From Flavobacterium sp. (GTDB taxonomy: Bacteria > Bacteroidota > Bacteroidia > Flavobacteriales > Flavobacteriaceae): a stretch of DNA of 64,000 nt. A program made the position numbers and the translations under genes. This document shows, in pieces, positions 1 through 7,310 of the stretch (positions within the stretch are counted from its first letter, which is position 1; each line of letters opens with the position of its first letter). The notes beneath the pieces are model-generated. The model was not told where the DNA came from and did not search any database. It saw nothing but the letters and a program-made list of their open reading frames with translations. The stretch spans positions 1-64,000 of the forward strand of contig JAIXSK010000016.1 of NCBI GenBank assembly GCA_027484725.1. The letters run 5' to 3'.

Positions 1-516
1 AATTTAAATGTGAGTCGCTACAGAAACGGTGATCCGATTCCACAAGTTACTGATCCTACGCAATGGGCCAATCTCACTACTGGGGCTTGGTGTTATTATG
101 CAAACAATTCTGCCAACGGCCCTGTGTATGGCAAACTCTATAATTGGTATGCCGTAAACGACCCCCGTGGTTTAGCACCAACGGGTTACCATGTGCCCAG
201 CGATGCCGAGTGGACAACTTTAACCACCTTTTTAGGCAGCGAAGCAGTAGGAAACAAAATGAAAGCCACAACAGGATGGGCTACTTATCCCGGTATTACA
301 AATACCAACAGCAGTGGTTTTACGGGTCTTCCGGGAGGTTTTCGTAGCTTCAATGTTACATTCTTCTACATTGGCTACTTCGGTTTCTGGTGGAGTTCGT
401 CAGAGTACTCAACTACTTACGCTTGGAGCCGCCTCCTGAATTATACCACCAGCAATGCGTACAGAAACTCCAATTATAAGGAGTACGGTTTCTCGGTGCG
501 TTGCCTCAGGGATTAG
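1..516 (+). CDS. DGR variable (target) protein, FISUMP-like (Fibrobacter succinogenes major paralogous domain) C-terminal region; 5' end runs off the window
   Basis: Frame is open to base 1 (NLNVSRYRNGDPIPQVTD...), so the GTG at 10 is probably not the true start. Protein has the FISUMP pattern RNGDPIPxV...WANLTTGAWCYYxN...YGKLYNWYAVNDPRGLAPTGYHVPSDAEWTTLT...WWSSSEYS...GFSVRCLRD. C-terminus contains the VR. Confidence 0.9.
   Translation, partial: NLNVSRYRNGDPIPQVTDPTQWANLTTGAWCYYANNSANGPVYGKLYNWYAVNDPRGLAPTGYHVPSDAEWTTLTTFLGSEAVGNKMKATTGWATYPGITNTNSSGFTGLPGGFRSFNVTFFYIGYFGFWWSSSEYSTTYAWSRLLNYTTSNAYRNSNYKEYGFSVRCLRD
323..514 (+). repeat. DGR variable repeat (VR)
   Basis: 192 nt aligning without gaps to TR 1060-1251 (constant offset 737). 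30 mismatches by hand count, 29 at TR adenines. Identical 5' block (cgggtcttccgggaggtt), central block (ctggtggagttcgtcagagtactcaac) and 3' block (acggtttctcggtgcgttgcctcagggatt). Ends just before the TAG stop. Confidence 0.95.
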
Positions 517-557
517 CCCTTTTGCCCTTTGACTCTTTGACTCTTTGAAAAATTGAT

Positions 558-581
558 AAGGGGCGTAAGCCCCTTTTTTTT
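558..581 (+). terminator. Hairpin with GTAA (GNRA) tetraloop plus T-run between VR and avd; terminator and/or DGR target-recognition hairpin
   Basis: aaggggc-gtaa-gcccctt (7-bp stem) followed by a T-tract, 43 nt after the VR end. Confidence 0.6.
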
Positions 582-587
582 GAAAAA

Positions 588-929
588 ATGAAATTACATT
601 CTGATTTACCAGTTTATAAAAGTACCTATGACTTGCTTTTAGGAATTTTTGAATTTACCAAAAGCTTTAGTAAAGAGTATAAATATACAGTGGGGGAGAG
701 CTTGAAAAAAGAAACTATAGATTTGTTAATCCTTATTTATAGAGTAAATTCAAGGCATGATAAAGGAAAAGTGCTAGAAGAAGCCAAAGAACGAATAGAA
801 GTGATTCGTTTATTAATACGCTTAATGAAAGATTTACATCAAATAAGCATTAAAAATTTTGTAAACATCAATTCTAAGGTAGAAGATGTATCAAAACAAC
901 TCACAGGTTGGCACAAATCAACCCAATAG
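588..929 (+). CDS. avd: DGR accessory variability determinant (Avd-like, four-helix-bundle / 23S-IVP-like protein)
   Basis: 113 aa, helical and basic (MKLHSDLPVYKSTYDLLLGIFEFTKSFSKEYKYTVGESLKKETIDLLILIYRVN...); lies between VR and TR, the usual place for avd. Confidence 0.85.
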   Translation: MKLHSDLPVYKSTYDLLLGIFEFTKSFSKEYKYTVGESLKKETIDLLILIYRVNSRHDKGKVLEEAKERIEVIRLLIRLMKDLHQISIKNFVNINSKVEDVSKQLTGWHKSTQ

Positions 930-1059
930 TTTCCAGACAGCGTTCTGAATGTTACGGCAAACAGAAGAGATCAAATTAAATCCGGTAACCCGCTGCATTA
1001 GTAAATACCTTTAATAGTAAGGTTTGGTGTAGCTAAAACAATAGTGGTTACTTCAGCGT

Positions 1060-1251
1060 CGGGTCTTCCGGGAGGTTATCGTAACAACAATGGAACATTC
1101 AACAACATTGGCAACAACGGTAACTGGTGGAGTTCGTCAGAGTACTCAACAACAAACGCTTGGAACCGCAACCTGAATTATAACAACAGCAATGCAAACA
1201 GAAACAACAATAATAAGAAAAACGGTTTCTCGGTGCGTTGCCTCAGGGATT
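1060..1251 (+). repeat. DGR template repeat (TR)
   Basis: Adenine-rich near-copy of VR (about 69 A in 192 nt by hand count). Lies between avd and RT. 21 AAY codons in the VR frame. Confidence 0.95.
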
Positions 1252-1262
1252 CAATAGGAAAC

Positions 1263-1285
1263 AACCTCCGATAAAATCGGAGGTT
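1263..1285 (+). other. Strong hairpin between TR and RT
   Basis: aacctccgat-aaa-atcggaggtt, 10-bp stem with 3-nt loop, 12 nt after the TR end and 13 nt before the RT ATG. Confidence 0.6.
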
Positions 1286-1298
1286 TATTGTTTATAGT

Positions 1299-2501
1299 AT
1301 GCAATTAGAACTTTTTTCTGATACAGTACCACTATCCTTAGCCGAAGAAGTCTTTTTGGCTTATTATGCTTGTAGAAAAAATAAACGGAACACACTTAAT
1401 GCACTTCGTTTTGAAAAACATTTAGAGCACAACTTATTTGTACTTATAGAGCAAATCAAAACAAAAACCTATTTTCCAGGCAAATCCATAGCCTTTATAG
1501 TAAACAAACCTGTAAAAAGAGAAATCTTCGCTGCTGATTTTAGAGACCGAGTGGTGCATCATTTTCTAATCAACAAGCTCAATCCTATTTTTGTGGATGT
1601 ATTTATACAAGATAGTTATGCATGTAGAATAGGAAAAGGAACTCATTTTGGTATAAAAAGAGTCGATGGTTTTATTAAGTCTTGTTCAAATAACTACAAA
1701 CAAGATTGTTTTATTTTGAAGTTAGACATTCAAGGATTTTTTATGAATATCAATAGAAGCATTCTTTATGAAAGGCTATTCGACTTTATCAATAAAAAAT
1801 ATCACGAACCAGACAGAGAACTGGTTCTTTTTTTATGCAGCAAAATTATTTTTAATGACTCAACAAAAAATTGTATCATCAAAGGCAATAAAAGCAATTG
1901 GATTGGATTGCCTAATAGCAAAAGCTTATTTTACAGTCCATTAAATTTTGGTTTGCCAATAGGAAATTTAACCAGTCAAGTTTTTGCTAATTTTTATATG
2001 AACATTTTTGACCATTATGTCAAAAAAGAACTAGATATTGAGTTTTATGGTCGTTATGTTGATGATTTTGTAATTGTGCATCAAGATAAAGAATATCTAA
2101 AATCATTATTACCAATAATTACCAATTTTCTTAAAACAAAATTACAACTAACTTTACACCCAAAGAAAATATATTTTCAGCATTACAGTAAAGGGGTTAA
2201 GTTTTTGGGAACATTTATCAAGCCCAATCGCATTTTCATCAGTAATCGAACAAAGGGGAATTTTTATACAGCTATTATGAAACAAAATGAGGTTGTTCAA
2301 AATACTAAGCCTAGTAGTGATGACCAAAAGCAATTTTTAAGTAGCATGAATTCCTATTTGGGAATTATGAAACACTATAAGACTTATCGATTAAGAAAGA
2401 AAATGCTTTTCAAAAATTTGAGTGGTTGGTGGTGGAACCAAGTTTATTTGAGCGGTGGAATTGCAAAATTTGTATTAAAAAAAAAGATAAAGACAATATA
2501 G
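1299..2501 (+). CDS. DGR-type RNA-directed DNA polymerase (reverse transcriptase)
   Basis: 400 aa RT with GLPIGNLTSQVFANFYMNIFD (IGxxxSQ motif typical of DGR RTs) and catalytic YVDD (codons 2055-2066); adjacent to TR/VR; no maturase or endonuclease domain visible. Confidence 0.95.
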   Translation: MQLELFSDTVPLSLAEEVFLAYYACRKNKRNTLNALRFEKHLEHNLFVLIEQIKTKTYFPGKSIAFIVNKPVKREIFAADFRDRVVHHFLINKLNPIFVDVFIQDSYACRIGKGTHFGIKRVDGFIKSCSNNYKQDCFILKLDIQGFFMNINRSILYERLFDFINKKYHEPDRELVLFLCSKIIFNDSTKNCIIKGNKSNWIGLPNSKSLFYSPLNFGLPIGNLTSQVFANFYMNIFDHYVKKELDIEFYGRYVDDFVIVHQDKEYLKSLLPIITNFLKTKLQLTLHPKKIYFQHYSKGVKFLGTFIKPNRIFISNRTKGNFYTAIMKQNEVVQNTKPSSDDQKQFLSSMNSYLGIMKHYKTYRLRKKMLFKNLSGWWWNQVYLSGGIAKFVLKKKIKTI

Positions 2502-2575: not shown

Positions 2576-2668
2576 ATAGCGTGAGGGACCTGCCTGCCGG
2601 CAGGCAGGTGCCAGCGATAGCCCACACCCGCGCAGTGTAACGGAGCGGCGAGGACTTTAGCGCACAGC
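2576..2668 (+). repeat. Dispersed intergenic repeat family 1, copy a
   Basis: gcgtgaggga...gccagcgatagccca...gcgcag...cggagcggcgaggactttagcgcacagcc; resembles the copy at 60538-60623. Confidence 0.6.
2588..2609. repeat. 22-bp perfect palindrome acctgcctgccggcaggcaggt inside a dispersed intergenic repeat
   Basis: acctgcctgcc is the exact reverse complement of ggcaggcaggt. Confidence 0.8.
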
Positions 2669-2731
2669 CAGACGGAGAACGCGTAAACTTTCCAGAAAGC
2701 AAATCATGAATGAGCCGGCACGCCCCAAAAA

Positions 2732-4585
2732 TTACTGTAATGTTTTCTGCAAATCTTGAACGGTAGTCAGATGATAACCCGATTTCGCTTTTTCAAAAAT
2801 GCTTTTCGCCCAAGTTTTTCCTTCAGGCGTTTTGACCATTTCTTTATATAAAGTTTGCAGCGAACCAGTACGACTGGTAGCAATCATGAATTGTTCGATT
2901 GCGGGATAAGCGGGTTTGTATTGGTGTTTAATCGCTTGCACGAACCATTGGCGCTTGACCACAAAATTCCCGCCTTTGGTAAAATTGAATTCTTGATCAA
3001 TAGCGGCCATTTCTTCTAGGGTCATATTTGACGGAAGGTAATCAATGAAATGCTGTTTTTCATTCGTGGATTTGATTTTTGCACTCAATCCTTTCACGCC
3101 GGTTTGTCGCCAAGTTTTTTGAATTTGGTCGATGGCGTTGAAATCTTCGGAAACCGCCGCAGTGATGTTGGACGGAACATCGGGCTGATAAATCCACTCT
3201 TCGGCTTTAATTTTATCGGCCAATGCTTTGTTGCCTTTGATGAGATGCTCGTTAAAATATTTCAAGAAATCTTCGGTGGTGATCGATTGAAACGCGTGTG
3301 CATTGAAGTATTCGGTAATGAACTTGTCGAAGGTAGCACGACCCACCGCATTTTCTACCACTTGAAGAAATGCATAACCCTTTTCATACGGAATATCGCT
3401 CAGTGATTCATCAGGATTTATCCCGTCAACATTCACTTTAAGTTGTGTAGCCGGATTCTTTGGGCCATAATCTTGCATATTGTCATTAAGTGATTTTCTG
3501 CTTAAAACATCTTGCATTTGTGCTTCTTTTAGACCGAAAATTGCTTCGCCAATGCGGTGTTCTACATAGGTGGTAAATCCTTCGTTGAGCCAAACGTCGT
3601 TCCAAGTGGCATTGGTTACTAAATTGCCGCTCCAACTGTGACCCAGTTCGTGTGCGAGCAAACTAGTTAAAGAACGATCGCCCGCAATGACGCCCGGAGT
3701 CAAAAACGTAAGGTTCGGATTTTCCATGCCACCATACGGAAAGCTCGGCGGTAAAACCAGTACGTCATAGCGTCCCCAACGGTAGGGGCCAAATAATTTT
3801 TCGGCAGCGGTAACCATTTTTCCGAGTTCGCCAAATTCCCAAGCGGCTTTATCTAGAACTGATTTTTCGGCATATACCCCGGTGCGTTGGTCAATTGATT
3901 TAAAACCGATATCGCCCACGGCAATCGCCATTAAATAGGATGGAATGGGTTTGTTTTGCTTGAAAGTGTAAATTCCAGTGTTGTTTTTTTGCTGTGGATT
4001 CACCGCGCTCATCACAGCCATCAATTCTTTTGGAACGGTAACTTTGGCATTATACGTAAAGCGAATTGCCGGAGAATCTTGACACGGAATCCAAGTGCGC
4101 GACCAAATGCTTTCGCCTTGTGAGAACATAAACGGATGTTTTTTATCAGCGGTTTGCCCTGGTGTTAGCCATTGCAGAGCAACCGCATCTTTGGTGGTTG
4201 CATAGTAAATGTTGACTTGTGTGGTGTTGGGTTCGATGGTAATATGCAGTGGTTTTCCGTGAAATTCAACTTCATCACCGAGTGTGAAAGTGGTAGGTTT
4301 TTCATCTTTGCCTAAAGTGACTTTACTGATGTTGAGTGTGTTTTCGTCGAAGATGATTTCGTTTCCTTTGCTCAAATTATCAATGGTCCAAGATGCTTTT
4401 CCGGCGATGGTTTGCGTGTCAAAATCAACTTTGATGTCTAAGTCTAGATGTTTGACCACTGCGGCTTGCGGGTTTGAAAAGGTATGGCTGTCTTTGGGCG
4501 CTGCGTTTTTTAGCTCGACGTTGTTTTCTTTTTTCTGACAGGCAAAAACTACCAATACTAAACTTAGGAAAAATAAGTTTTTCAT
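2732..4585 (-). CDS. M1 family metallopeptidase (aminopeptidase), lipoprotein signal
   Basis: GGMENP and HELGHSW zinc motifs; N-terminal MKNLFFLSLVLVVFACQKK. Confidence 0.92.
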   Translation of the reverse strand: MKNLFFLSLVLVVFACQKKENNVELKNAAPKDSHTFSNPQAAVVKHLDLDIKVDFDTQTIAGKASWTIDNLSKGNEIIFDENTLNISKVTLGKDEKPTTFTLGDEVEFHGKPLHITIEPNTTQVNIYYATTKDAVALQWLTPGQTADKKHPFMFSQGESIWSRTWIPCQDSPAIRFTYNAKVTVPKELMAVMSAVNPQQKNNTGIYTFKQNKPIPSYLMAIAVGDIGFKSIDQRTGVYAEKSVLDKAAWEFGELGKMVTAAEKLFGPYRWGRYDVLVLPPSFPYGGMENPNLTFLTPGVIAGDRSLTSLLAHELGHSWSGNLVTNATWNDVWLNEGFTTYVEHRIGEAIFGLKEAQMQDVLSRKSLNDNMQDYGPKNPATQLKVNVDGINPDESLSDIPYEKGYAFLQVVENAVGRATFDKFITEYFNAHAFQSITTEDFLKYFNEHLIKGNKALADKIKAEEWIYQPDVPSNITAAVSEDFNAIDQIQKTWRQTGVKGLSAKIKSTNEKQHFIDYLPSNMTLEEMAAIDQEFNFTKGGNFVVKRQWFVQAIKHQYKPAYPAIEQFMIATSRTGSLQTLYKEMVKTPEGKTWAKSIFEKAKSGYHLTTVQDLQKTLQ

Positions 4586-4612
4586 CTTCTTTGAAATTTA
4601 ATCGAAAGTTAA

Positions 4613-4648
4613 ACAAAAAACCCGTCGAGAAAAATCAGGACGGGTTTT
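4613..4648 (-). terminator. Rho-independent terminator downstream of the E2 gene
   Basis: aaaaaacccgtc...gacgggtttt inverted repeat with T-run on the minus strand. Confidence 0.65.
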
Positions 4649-4666
4649 GTTAAATGTATTTATTGA

Positions 4667-6304
4667 TTAGGCCAACATCGTGACCGGATTTTCTAAATAT
4701 TGTCTGAGCGTTTGCAAGAATTGTGCTCCTGTAGCGCCATCAACAGTTCTGTGATCGCAAGCCAAAGTTACTTTCATCGTATTGCCAACAACAATCTGTC
4801 CGTTTCTCACGACCGGTTTCTCAACAATGGCACCCACAGAAAGGATGGCCGAATTAGGTTGGTTGATGATTGAAGTAAACTCTGTAATGCCAAACATACC
4901 CAAATTCGAAACTGTAAAGGTACTGCCATCCATTTCGGCTGGTTGTAGTTTTTTAGACTTGGCTTTTCCGGCCAAATCTTTTACTTGTGCACCAATTTGC
5001 GAAAGCGTCATCTGATCGGTAAAACGCAATACCGGAACCACCAATCCGTCTTCAACCGCAACAGCCACGCCTACATTGACATGGTGGTTGATGATGATGG
5101 CGTCTTCTCTCCATTGTGAGTTCACTTTCGGATGTTTTTTCAAGGCCATCGCACAAGCTTTGATTACCATATCGTTAAATGATACCTTGGTATCAGGAAT
5201 GTTGTTGATCATACTGCGTGAGCGCATGGCTTCGTCCATAGCAACTTCTATAGTCAAATAGAAATGCGGTGCGGTAAATATTGATTCAGACAAGCGCTTG
5301 GCAATGGTTTTGCGCATTTGCGAATTCTTGATTTCTTCAGAGTACATTTCACCAGCCGGTACAAATGGTTGAACCGCAGTTGTTGGCGAAGCTGTCATAG
5401 GTTGAACTGATGATGCAGCAGCAGCTGAAGGCGTGAAGTTTTCAATATCGCTTTTTACGATGCGGCCATTTTCTCCGCTTCCTTTTACTTGAGCAATGTC
5501 AATTCCTTTTTCTTCGGCCAATTTTTTAGCCAGTGGAGAAATGAAGATTCTACGGTCATCTGATGAAGAAGCAGTAGCGGGTGCAGTTGTTTCTGTAACG
5601 GTTGGTGTTGCAGCCGGAGCTGAAGCCGGAGCAGCTGTATTGCCGCCTTTTTTGAAGTTTTCTGCGACACCGGTGATGTCGGTGCCTGCTGGTCCGATGA
5701 TGGCCAGAACGCTATCCACCGGAGCAGTTTGACCTTCTTGTACACCAATGTATAACAAAGTTCCTGATTGGAATGATTCAAACTCCATGGTGGCTTTGTC
5801 GGTTTCAATCTCGGCTAAAATATCGCCTTCTTTAACGGTATCTCCGATTTTTTTGAGCCATGTTGCAACGGTTCCGTCGGTCATGGTGTCACTGAGTCTT
5901 GGCATGGTGACCACAACGACACCCTTAGGTAAGGCTGACGAAGCAGCAGTAGTTGCAGCCGGAGCAGCAGTCTCTTGTGCTACATGAGTTTCATTTGCAG
6001 AGGCAGCAGTAGCAGTAGCCGGAGCTTTTCCTAGATGGAGTAACGGAGCGATATCTTCGCCTTCGGCACCAATAATGGCCAAAAGTGAGTCAACCGGTGC
6101 GGTTTCGCCTTCTTGGATTCCAATGTGTAAAAGAGTTCCTGAATTGAACGACTCAAATTCCATGGTGGCTTTGTCGGTTTCAATTTCGGCTAAAATATCT
6201 CCTTCGTTGATTTTGTCTCCTACTTTTTTAAGCCATTTGGCCACAACACCTTCGGTCATGGTATCGCTCAAACGGGGCATGGTTATAATCTTTGCCATAA
6301 TCAA
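4667..6304 (-). CDS. Pyruvate dehydrogenase complex dihydrolipoamide acetyltransferase (E2), two lipoyl domains
   Basis: Two repeated lipoyl motifs (EIETDKATMEFES), E3-binding domain (ISPLAKKLAEEKGIDIAQVKGSGENGRI), C-terminal catalytic DHRTVDG. Confidence 0.95.
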   Translation of the reverse strand: MIMAKIITMPRLSDTMTEGVVAKWLKKVGDKINEGDILAEIETDKATMEFESFNSGTLLHIGIQEGETAPVDSLLAIIGAEGEDIAPLLHLGKAPATATAASANETHVAQETAAPAATTAASSALPKGVVVVTMPRLSDTMTDGTVATWLKKIGDTVKEGDILAEIETDKATMEFESFQSGTLLYIGVQEGQTAPVDSVLAIIGPAGTDITGVAENFKKGGNTAAPASAPAATPTVTETTAPATASSSDDRRIFISPLAKKLAEEKGIDIAQVKGSGENGRIVKSDIENFTPSAAAASSVQPMTASPTTAVQPFVPAGEMYSEEIKNSQMRKTIAKRLSESIFTAPHFYLTIEVAMDEAMRSRSMINNIPDTKVSFNDMVIKACAMALKKHPKVNSQWREDAIIINHHVNVGVAVAVEDGLVVPVLRFTDQMTLSQIGAQVKDLAGKAKSKKLQPAEMDGSTFTVSNLGMFGITEFTSIINQPNSAILSVGAIVEKPVVRNGQIVVGNTMKVTLACDHRTVDGATGAQFLQTLRQYLENPVTMLA

Positions 6305-6311
6305 TACGCAA

Positions 6312-7310
6312 TTACAATTTGTGTGGAATAAATGGATAATCTCTTTGCTCGTATACTACGTCATACATTTGTTGAATTTCTGGGAAATCAGATTCTTCAG
6401 CAAAAGTTGCGCACTCCTCAACCAAATTTTTTACACGCTCATCAATGGCCTCAATATCAGCATCGGTAGCGTATTTTTGATCTTTGATCACATCGAGCAC
6501 TTGGGTAATCGGGTCAATTTTGCGATACTCATCGACCTCTTCTTTGCTGCGGTATAATTGCGCATCAGACATCGAGTGACCTCTGTAGCGATAGGTTTTC
6601 ATTTCTAAGAAGGTTGGGCCATCTCCACGACGCGCACGCTCAATGGCTTCGTGCATGGCTTCGGCTACTTTTACCGGATTCATTCCATCCACAGGACCAC
6701 AAGGCATTTCATAGCCTAAGCCCAGTTTCCAAACATCGGTATGGTTGGCGGTTCGCTCTACTGAAGTACCCATCGCATAACCGTTGTTCTCAACAATAAA
6801 AACCACCGGAAGTTTCCAGAGCATGGCCATATTAAAGGCTTCGTGTAAAGAACCTTGACGCGCCGCACCATCACCAAAATAGGTAAGGGTAACACCATCG
6901 CGACCAAAATATTGATCGGCAAAAGCAATTCCGGCGCCTACGGGGATTTGAGCTCCTACAATACCGTGTCCGCCGTAAAACCCATGTTCTTTTGAGAAAA
7001 TGTGCATCGATCCGCCCATTCCTTTTGAAGTGCCGGTAACTTTTCCGAGTAACTCAGCCATAACAGCTTTTGGATCAACGCCCATACCAATAGGTTGTAC
7101 GTGGTTGCGGTAAGCGGTAATCATTTTGTCTTTGGATAAATCCATGGCATGGAGTGCACCTGCCAAAACGGCTTCTTGACCGTTGTATAAGTGAAGGAAT
7201 CCTCTAATTTTTTGTTGAATGTAAAGAGCGGCTAGTTTGTCTTCAAATTTTCTCCAAAATAGCATGTCTTCATACCATTTTAAGTAAACTTCTCTTGTAA
7301 TTTCTTTCAT
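6312..7310 (-). CDS. pdhA: Pyruvate dehydrogenase E1 component subunit alpha
   Basis: TPP-binding GDGAARQGSLHEAFNMAMLWKLPVVFIVENNGYAMGTSVER; RYRGHSMSD. Confidence 0.95.
   Translation of the reverse strand: MKEITREVYLKWYEDMLFWRKFEDKLAALYIQQKIRGFLHLYNGQEAVLAGALHAMDLSKDKMITAYRNHVQPIGMGVDPKAVMAELLGKVTGTSKGMGGSMHIFSKEHGFYGGHGIVGAQIPVGAGIAFADQYFGRDGVTLTYFGDGAARQGSLHEAFNMAMLWKLPVVFIVENNGYAMGTSVERTANHTDVWKLGLGYEMPCGPVDGMNPVKVAEAMHEAIERARRGDGPTFLEMKTYRYRGHSMSDAQLYRSKEEVDEYRKIDPITQVLDVIKDQKYATDADIEAIDERVKNLVEECATFAEESDFPEIQQMYDVVYEQRDYPFIPHKL

Follow-up and report, generated by a model that had tools for sequence, protein, structure and literature searches.

In the 64,000-nucleotide stretch of Flavobacterium sp. 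DNA analysed here (the window), the repeat at positions 1060–1251 is, with a probability that we put at about 0.93, the template repeat (TR) of a chromosomal diversity-generating retroelement (DGR) that acts by adenine mutagenesis and whose template follows a codon design of AAY triplets and adenines preceding G. All parts of such an element are present and in order (table 1): a target gene with a variable repeat (VR), avd, a leader resembling RT-7 RNA, the TR and a reverse transcriptase (RT). By analogy with the known mechanism, the transcript of the leader and TR would be copied by a complex of RT and Avd, which would misincorporate at template adenines, and the resulting cDNA would then replace the VR, located 3′-terminally in a gene for a predicted lipoprotein with a FISUMP (putatively C-type-lectin-like) domain. 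The TR is held constant and the VR altered almost solely at TR adenines; residues that vary are coded by AAC and sometimes AAT, from which no stops can arise, and residues that are kept have adenine-poor codons or, in the DGR group of the window, adenines that escape mutation by standing before G. Activity of the element is deduced from two genomes, and the related loci drawn upon below are not mutually independent. Core genes adjoin the cassette, which is therefore chromosomal: its neighbours are GldJ (assigned by TIGR03524) and, by reading of their translations, an M1-type peptidase, pyruvate dehydrogenase subunits and PorV- and PorU-like proteins, and its surroundings showed no phage genes.

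Table 1. Features of the DGR cassette in the window.
Feature	Position	Strand	Basis
FISUMP / Fib_succ_major target gene, 3′ part only, VR at its end	1–516	+	PF09603, TIGR02145
VR (variable repeat)	323–514	+	84% identity with TR; 29/30 mismatches at TR adenines
Hairpin AAGGGGC-GTAA-GCCCCTT, 43 nt 3′ of VR	558–575	+	0/300 shuffles equally good
avd, accessory variability determinant	588–929	+	PF22296 bAvd, E=3e-15
Structured leader immediately 5′ of TR, similar to Rfam RT-7 RNA (RF03028)	936–1058	+	56.8 bits, E=1.5e-12
TR (template repeat), 69 adenines, 21 AAY codons in VR frame	1060–1251	+	TR/VR alignment; CYK-55 copy identical
TR codon AGA, can become TGA; first A precedes G	1200–1202	+	read from TR
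TR codons AAG (1215) and AAA (1218), stop-capable by adenine change	1215–1220	+	read from TR
Perfect 10-bp inverted repeat AACCTCCGAT-AAA-ATCGGAGGTT, between TR and RT	1263–1285	+	direct reading of sequence
DGR reverse transcriptase, 400 aa, YVDD and GLPIGNLTSQ	1299–2501	+	PF00078, E=4.5e-20

Contig base 1 is also the start of the window and lies inside the target gene, the 5′ part of which accordingly falls outside; the complete gene is present in the copy of Flavobacterium sp. CYK-55, where the protein begins MKNYFSATLIFCLVIVVISCSQQ, a lipoprotein-like signal. The target domain scores above the family cut-offs of both PF09603 (141.8 bits against 33.9, E=3.9e-41) and TIGR02145 (88.1 bits against 41.65, E=1.1e-24), and Avd lies above the cut-off of PF22296 and under that of NF033474 (E=1e-15). 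The GxxxSQ motif marks DGR-type reverse transcriptases, and in the RT of the window G222, S226 and Q227 as well as Y253, V254, D255 and D256 are invariant in alignment A1, as are most motif residues. The RT-7 model scores 56.8 bits on the leader, i.e. below the gathering threshold of 116.8 despite E=1.5e-12. An RT-7-like leader is found at the same place in three other loci (L034, 1820–1985; L036, 4573–4737; L038, 1094–1362) and scores above gathering in a further relative (L070, 1961–2144); because it stands immediately 5′ of the TR in five DGRs, that of the window (936–1058) included, RT-7 RNA is probably the leader of DGR template RNA. The 7-bp hairpin with the loop GTAA, 43 nt downstream of the VR, is a candidate target-recognition hairpin or terminator; GC-rich hairpins of phage DGRs stand 4–34 bp after the VR and have a GRNA loop (PMC3240598), a pattern outside which GTAA falls.

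Over 192 positions, TR and VR have 30 mismatches; all but one lie at adenines of the TR (20 changed to T, 5 to G and 4 to C), the exception being a G-to-T difference at TR base 1093. At the protein level (numbered along the 171-aa target fragment) there are 19 residue differences, consisting of 16 Asn residues together with Y114F, G119V and K161E, and 18 of these are pure adenine changes, whereas G119V requires a non-adenine change. Read in the VR frame, the TR contains 16 AAC and 5 AAT codons, and the 16 of these 21 that are changed in the VR code for Tyr (6), Phe (4), Ser (3), Thr (2) and Leu (1). The original prediction had located and translated the repeat and had counted 21 AAY codons, 16 of them changed, and 19 differing residues; alignment of TR and VR bears out every one of these statements. 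The genome of the window carries three further FISUMP genes (L044–L046 on contigs C18, C26 and C32), two of which lie at the very start of a contig or close to it. Such paralogues in the same genome, and homologues that vary at the same columns, could suggest that no retroelement is at work and that TR and VR simply arose by divergence of two copies of an Asn-rich FISUMP domain, driven by ordinary positive selection. This reading, however, is already refuted by the adenine-only pattern, in which 29 of the 30 differences fall on adenines of a single copy, and we consider it close to excluded, since RT and Avd lie adjacent, the TR is identical between species while the VR is different, and the DGR footprint is absent from the two own-genome paralogues that are testable over AAY codons, in which the third base is kept in only 4/15 and 0/7 changed codons.

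The comparison between species concerns CYK-55 (L033), which has an equivalent cassette at the equivalent locus. Bases 501–2600 differ from the window at 5 of 2100 positions (99.8% identity); the flank (2601–7100) is about 11% divergent, and divergence reaches up to 25% per 100 bases towards the 5′ side of the target gene. The TRs are identical at all 192 positions; between the VRs there are 37 differences in 192 positions, only one of which is not at a TR adenine, and the 30 mismatches between TR and VR within CYK-55 itself are all at TR adenines. On the simplest reading, the cassette would have been exchanged recently between two Flavobacterium species and each VR rewritten since. Two species with a near-identical cassette and different VRs provide a natural record of recent diversification. 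In CYK-55 the cassette is located downstream of a 5S rRNA gene.

FISUMP genes of many other Flavobacterium genomes bear the adenine footprint of this TR, with mismatches to it at 40–50% of TR adenines and at about 9–20% of other positions, and their changed AAY codons still have the third base of the TR (e.g. in 14/15, 15/16 and 18/19 cases). Such genes (L050–L058, L354, L361, L363 and L364, from genomes G002, G016, G130, G355 and others) lie in genomes where a full-length RT of the window's clade was looked for and not found; among 400 Flavobacterium genomes, only two have one, namely those of the window and of CYK-55; several of the RT-less genomes are fragmented metagenome assemblies, and some are 98–99% complete. 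One genome, G355, shows a decayed cassette (L052, bases 1–560, minus strand): after the target gene with its VR come avd residues 1–51 (98% identity), then a stop and a repeated inverted motif (ATCTGAATTTATTTCAGAT), and finally what is left of the RT (residues 310–375). For the RT-less FISUMP genes in general, loss of the machinery after diversification is the best reading, and action in trans by another strain or phage is the alternative; past DGR action can in this way be read in RT-less genomes from the retained adenine footprint. That most relatives in the genus with a matching VR have no RT, and that one has a visibly decayed cassette, might suggest that the DGR of the window is itself recently dead, with a VR that was diversified formerly and is now static. 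We consider this improbable, as RT and Avd are open in the window and 100% and 99% identical to their CYK-55 copies, and as divergence of the VRs contrasts with 5 differences in 2100 bases in the remaining cassette.

Taking the repeat, then, as the TR of a DGR, the question arises what its codon design accomplishes. The excess of AAY is not due to chance: dinucleotide-preserving shuffles contain 4.5 such codons on average and 12 at most (2000 shuffles) compared with 21 in the TR, and the ratio AAY:AAR is 21:2 in the TR versus 264:275 in neighbouring genes (P=5e-5). It had been proposed that the template is pre-adapted for stop-free diversification, with Asn codons that cannot become stops. The latter is correct for AAY itself, but not for the TR overall, in which AGA (1200), AAG (1215) and AAA (1218) are stop-capable. 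Under a naive estimate that treats all adenines as mutable at 0.43 and all replacements as equally likely, each event yields a stop with a chance of 0.22 when the TR is read in the VR frame, of 0.63 and 0.98 in the two remaining frames and of 0.82 in shuffled sequences; across 72 DGR repeats, however, the median is 0.08, and the TR of the window ranks 67th of 72, i.e. among the least stop-safe. By this estimate truncation is rare, and the TR is strongly protected against it, yet it is no outstanding example among DGRs and is stop-poor rather than stop-free; its design limits truncation without abolishing it. AAA is changed in both known VRs, to GAG and to ATT, and the first A of AGA, which precedes G, is nearly immune in the DGR group of the window. 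A context-based stop estimate of 0.35 was set aside, as it gives full mutability to the first A of AAG, an assumption not borne out by the data, in which AAG is changed in 0/2 and 4/49 cases.

The codon design recurs in 76 TR/VR pairs taken from the window locus and relatives, and within it the working variable codon is AAC, not AAT. In the VRs of the window and CYK-55 together, AAC is changed in 30/32 cases and AAT in 4/10 (P=9e-4), and in other DGRs in 605/705 and 143/207 cases, respectively (P=2e-7); AAC:AAT is 16:5 in the TR compared with 126:138 in neighbouring genes (P=0.013). This preference agrees with a study of the BPP-1 enzyme in E. coli (PMC12875486), in which the error profile at an adenine is governed by its 3′ neighbour and that of AAC stands apart. 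These observations (the AAC:AAT ratio, the more frequent change of AAC than of AAT here and elsewhere, and the distinct AAC profile of the BPP-1 enzyme) also lend themselves to an explanation of the design, as opposed to the identity of the DGR, in which the enzyme would be the main cause of the AAY richness: AAC would be an error hot spot of the RT, towards which templates drift, with freedom from stops as a by-product. We hold this to be a real possibility, if somewhat short of an even chance, because AAR, which is equally adenine-rich, is nearly absent (2 versus 21 AAY), just as stop avoidance predicts, and because AAT is also stop-safe and used.

The original prediction further noted that variable residues often become aromatic, as expected for a binding surface. 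Tyr and Phe indeed make up 10 of the 16 changed codons in the window (P=0.046), but 7 of 18 in CYK-55 (P=0.58) and 39% of changed AAC codons in other DGRs; aromatic replacements need no selection, and selection for a binding surface is not needed to explain them. Across 71 TR/VR pairs from the RT group of the window, the outcomes of AAC change strongly avoid Cys (TGC, seen 4 times where independence predicts 70) and show an excess of Leu (CTC, 40 versus 9), which may reflect either coupled errors or selection.

Adenines that precede G behave differently from all others. Within the mutated span of 63 loci of the window's RT group, an adenine is changed in 62% of cases if the next base is A, in 42% if it is C, in 39% if it is T and in 4% if it is G, corresponding to 10/242 changes before G versus 1181/2331 at other adenines. 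Even where changed adenines lie within 12 nt on both sides, only 3/154 adenines before G are changed. Selection at the protein level is an unlikely cause, because synonymous sites show the same immunity (2/31 changed before G versus 23/54 otherwise; P=4e-4). Among TR adenines outside AAY codons, G is the next base in 37% of cases, compared with 25% of adenines in the remaining long reading frames that these loci contain. It seems somewhat more likely than not that the RTs of this group copy an adenine faithfully if the next template base is G, such that AAC would signify ‘vary’ and A before G ‘keep’. If so, the mutable adenines of any TR in the group could be read from its sequence, and estimates of DGR diversity made in the customary way, by counting every adenine, would be too high. 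For NAG, the text of PMC12875486 gives the rate of G misincorporation alone, 0.08%. The idea that structural motifs contain few mutable adenines fails by simple count for WWSSSEYSTT, which has 9 adenines in 30 nt; of these, three stand before G, where this DGR group hardly ever mutates an adenine, and three are synonymous third positions. The immunity was rejected as a general rule for DGRs, because a second, independent group (L177–L256, together with L005 and L006) shows the reverse, and the rule is limited to the DGR group of the window. In that second group, adenines before G are changed in 358/361 cases, 91% of them to G, including synonymous TCA (87/87); these sites, at repeat ends, may be fixed differences.

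The AAY columns of the TR are also the variable columns of the FISUMP family, although this support is only partly independent. In an alignment of the VR with 19 homologues, column entropy is 2.9 bits at AAY codons and 0.8 at codons without A, and the difference between AAY columns and the rest of the VR (P=2e-9) is partly circular, as several of these homologues show a DGR footprint. A model of the complete CYK-55 domain from a deeper alignment reached a pLDDT of 94.5 and a pTM of 0.90; a model of the truncated window protein, based on 21 sequences, was discarded (pLDDT 45.7). Along the predicted strands 158–165 and 171–177 of the CYK-55 model, most variable residues take turns with constant ones (A, W, R and L), the pattern that a sheet with one variable side would give; clustering of the variable residues on one exposed face thereby has indirect support only. 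Matches of the model in the PDB are weak, all with E>0.1 (4eps, E=0.16; C-type lectins, E~1), and a PDB sequence search gave chance matches to tubulin only.

Much of this has precedents. The AAY rule has been published (PMC4159848, as a DGRscan filter; PMC6328139; PMC5006420), as have FISUMP targets of DGRs (PMC4159848) and degenerate DGR loci (PMC10907252); the template design is well known, and the DGR of the window is an ordinary one that adds one example, with the prospect that the mutable fraction of a TR may be predictable from the next base. It resembles the BPP-1 DGR (mtd / avd / TR / brt) in having a 3′ VR in the target gene followed by avd, TR and RT, in the adenine specificity of TR/VR differences and in the AAC coding of variable sites. 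It differs in its chromosomal target with a FISUMP domain, in the RT-7-like leader upstream of the TR, in a gap of 47 nt between TR and RT and in its hairpin loop GTAA, compared with GRNA in the BPP-1 target hairpin (PMC3240598); the BPP-1 TR has no AG dinucleotide and so provides no test of the A-before-G rule. With DGRs from human gut metagenomes that have Fib_succ_major or DUF1566 targets (PMC4159848) it shares the C-terminal domain and the predicted lipoprotein, but in contrast to these it resides in a Flavobacterium chromosome and has many RT-less relatives of its target gene in the genus. The DGRs of Thiohalocapsa PB-PSB1 likewise include degenerate loci without machinery and have a codon composition said to prevent nonsense codons (PMC10907252); there, action in trans within one genome has been proposed, whereas no matching RT was found in the RT-less Flavobacterium genomes.
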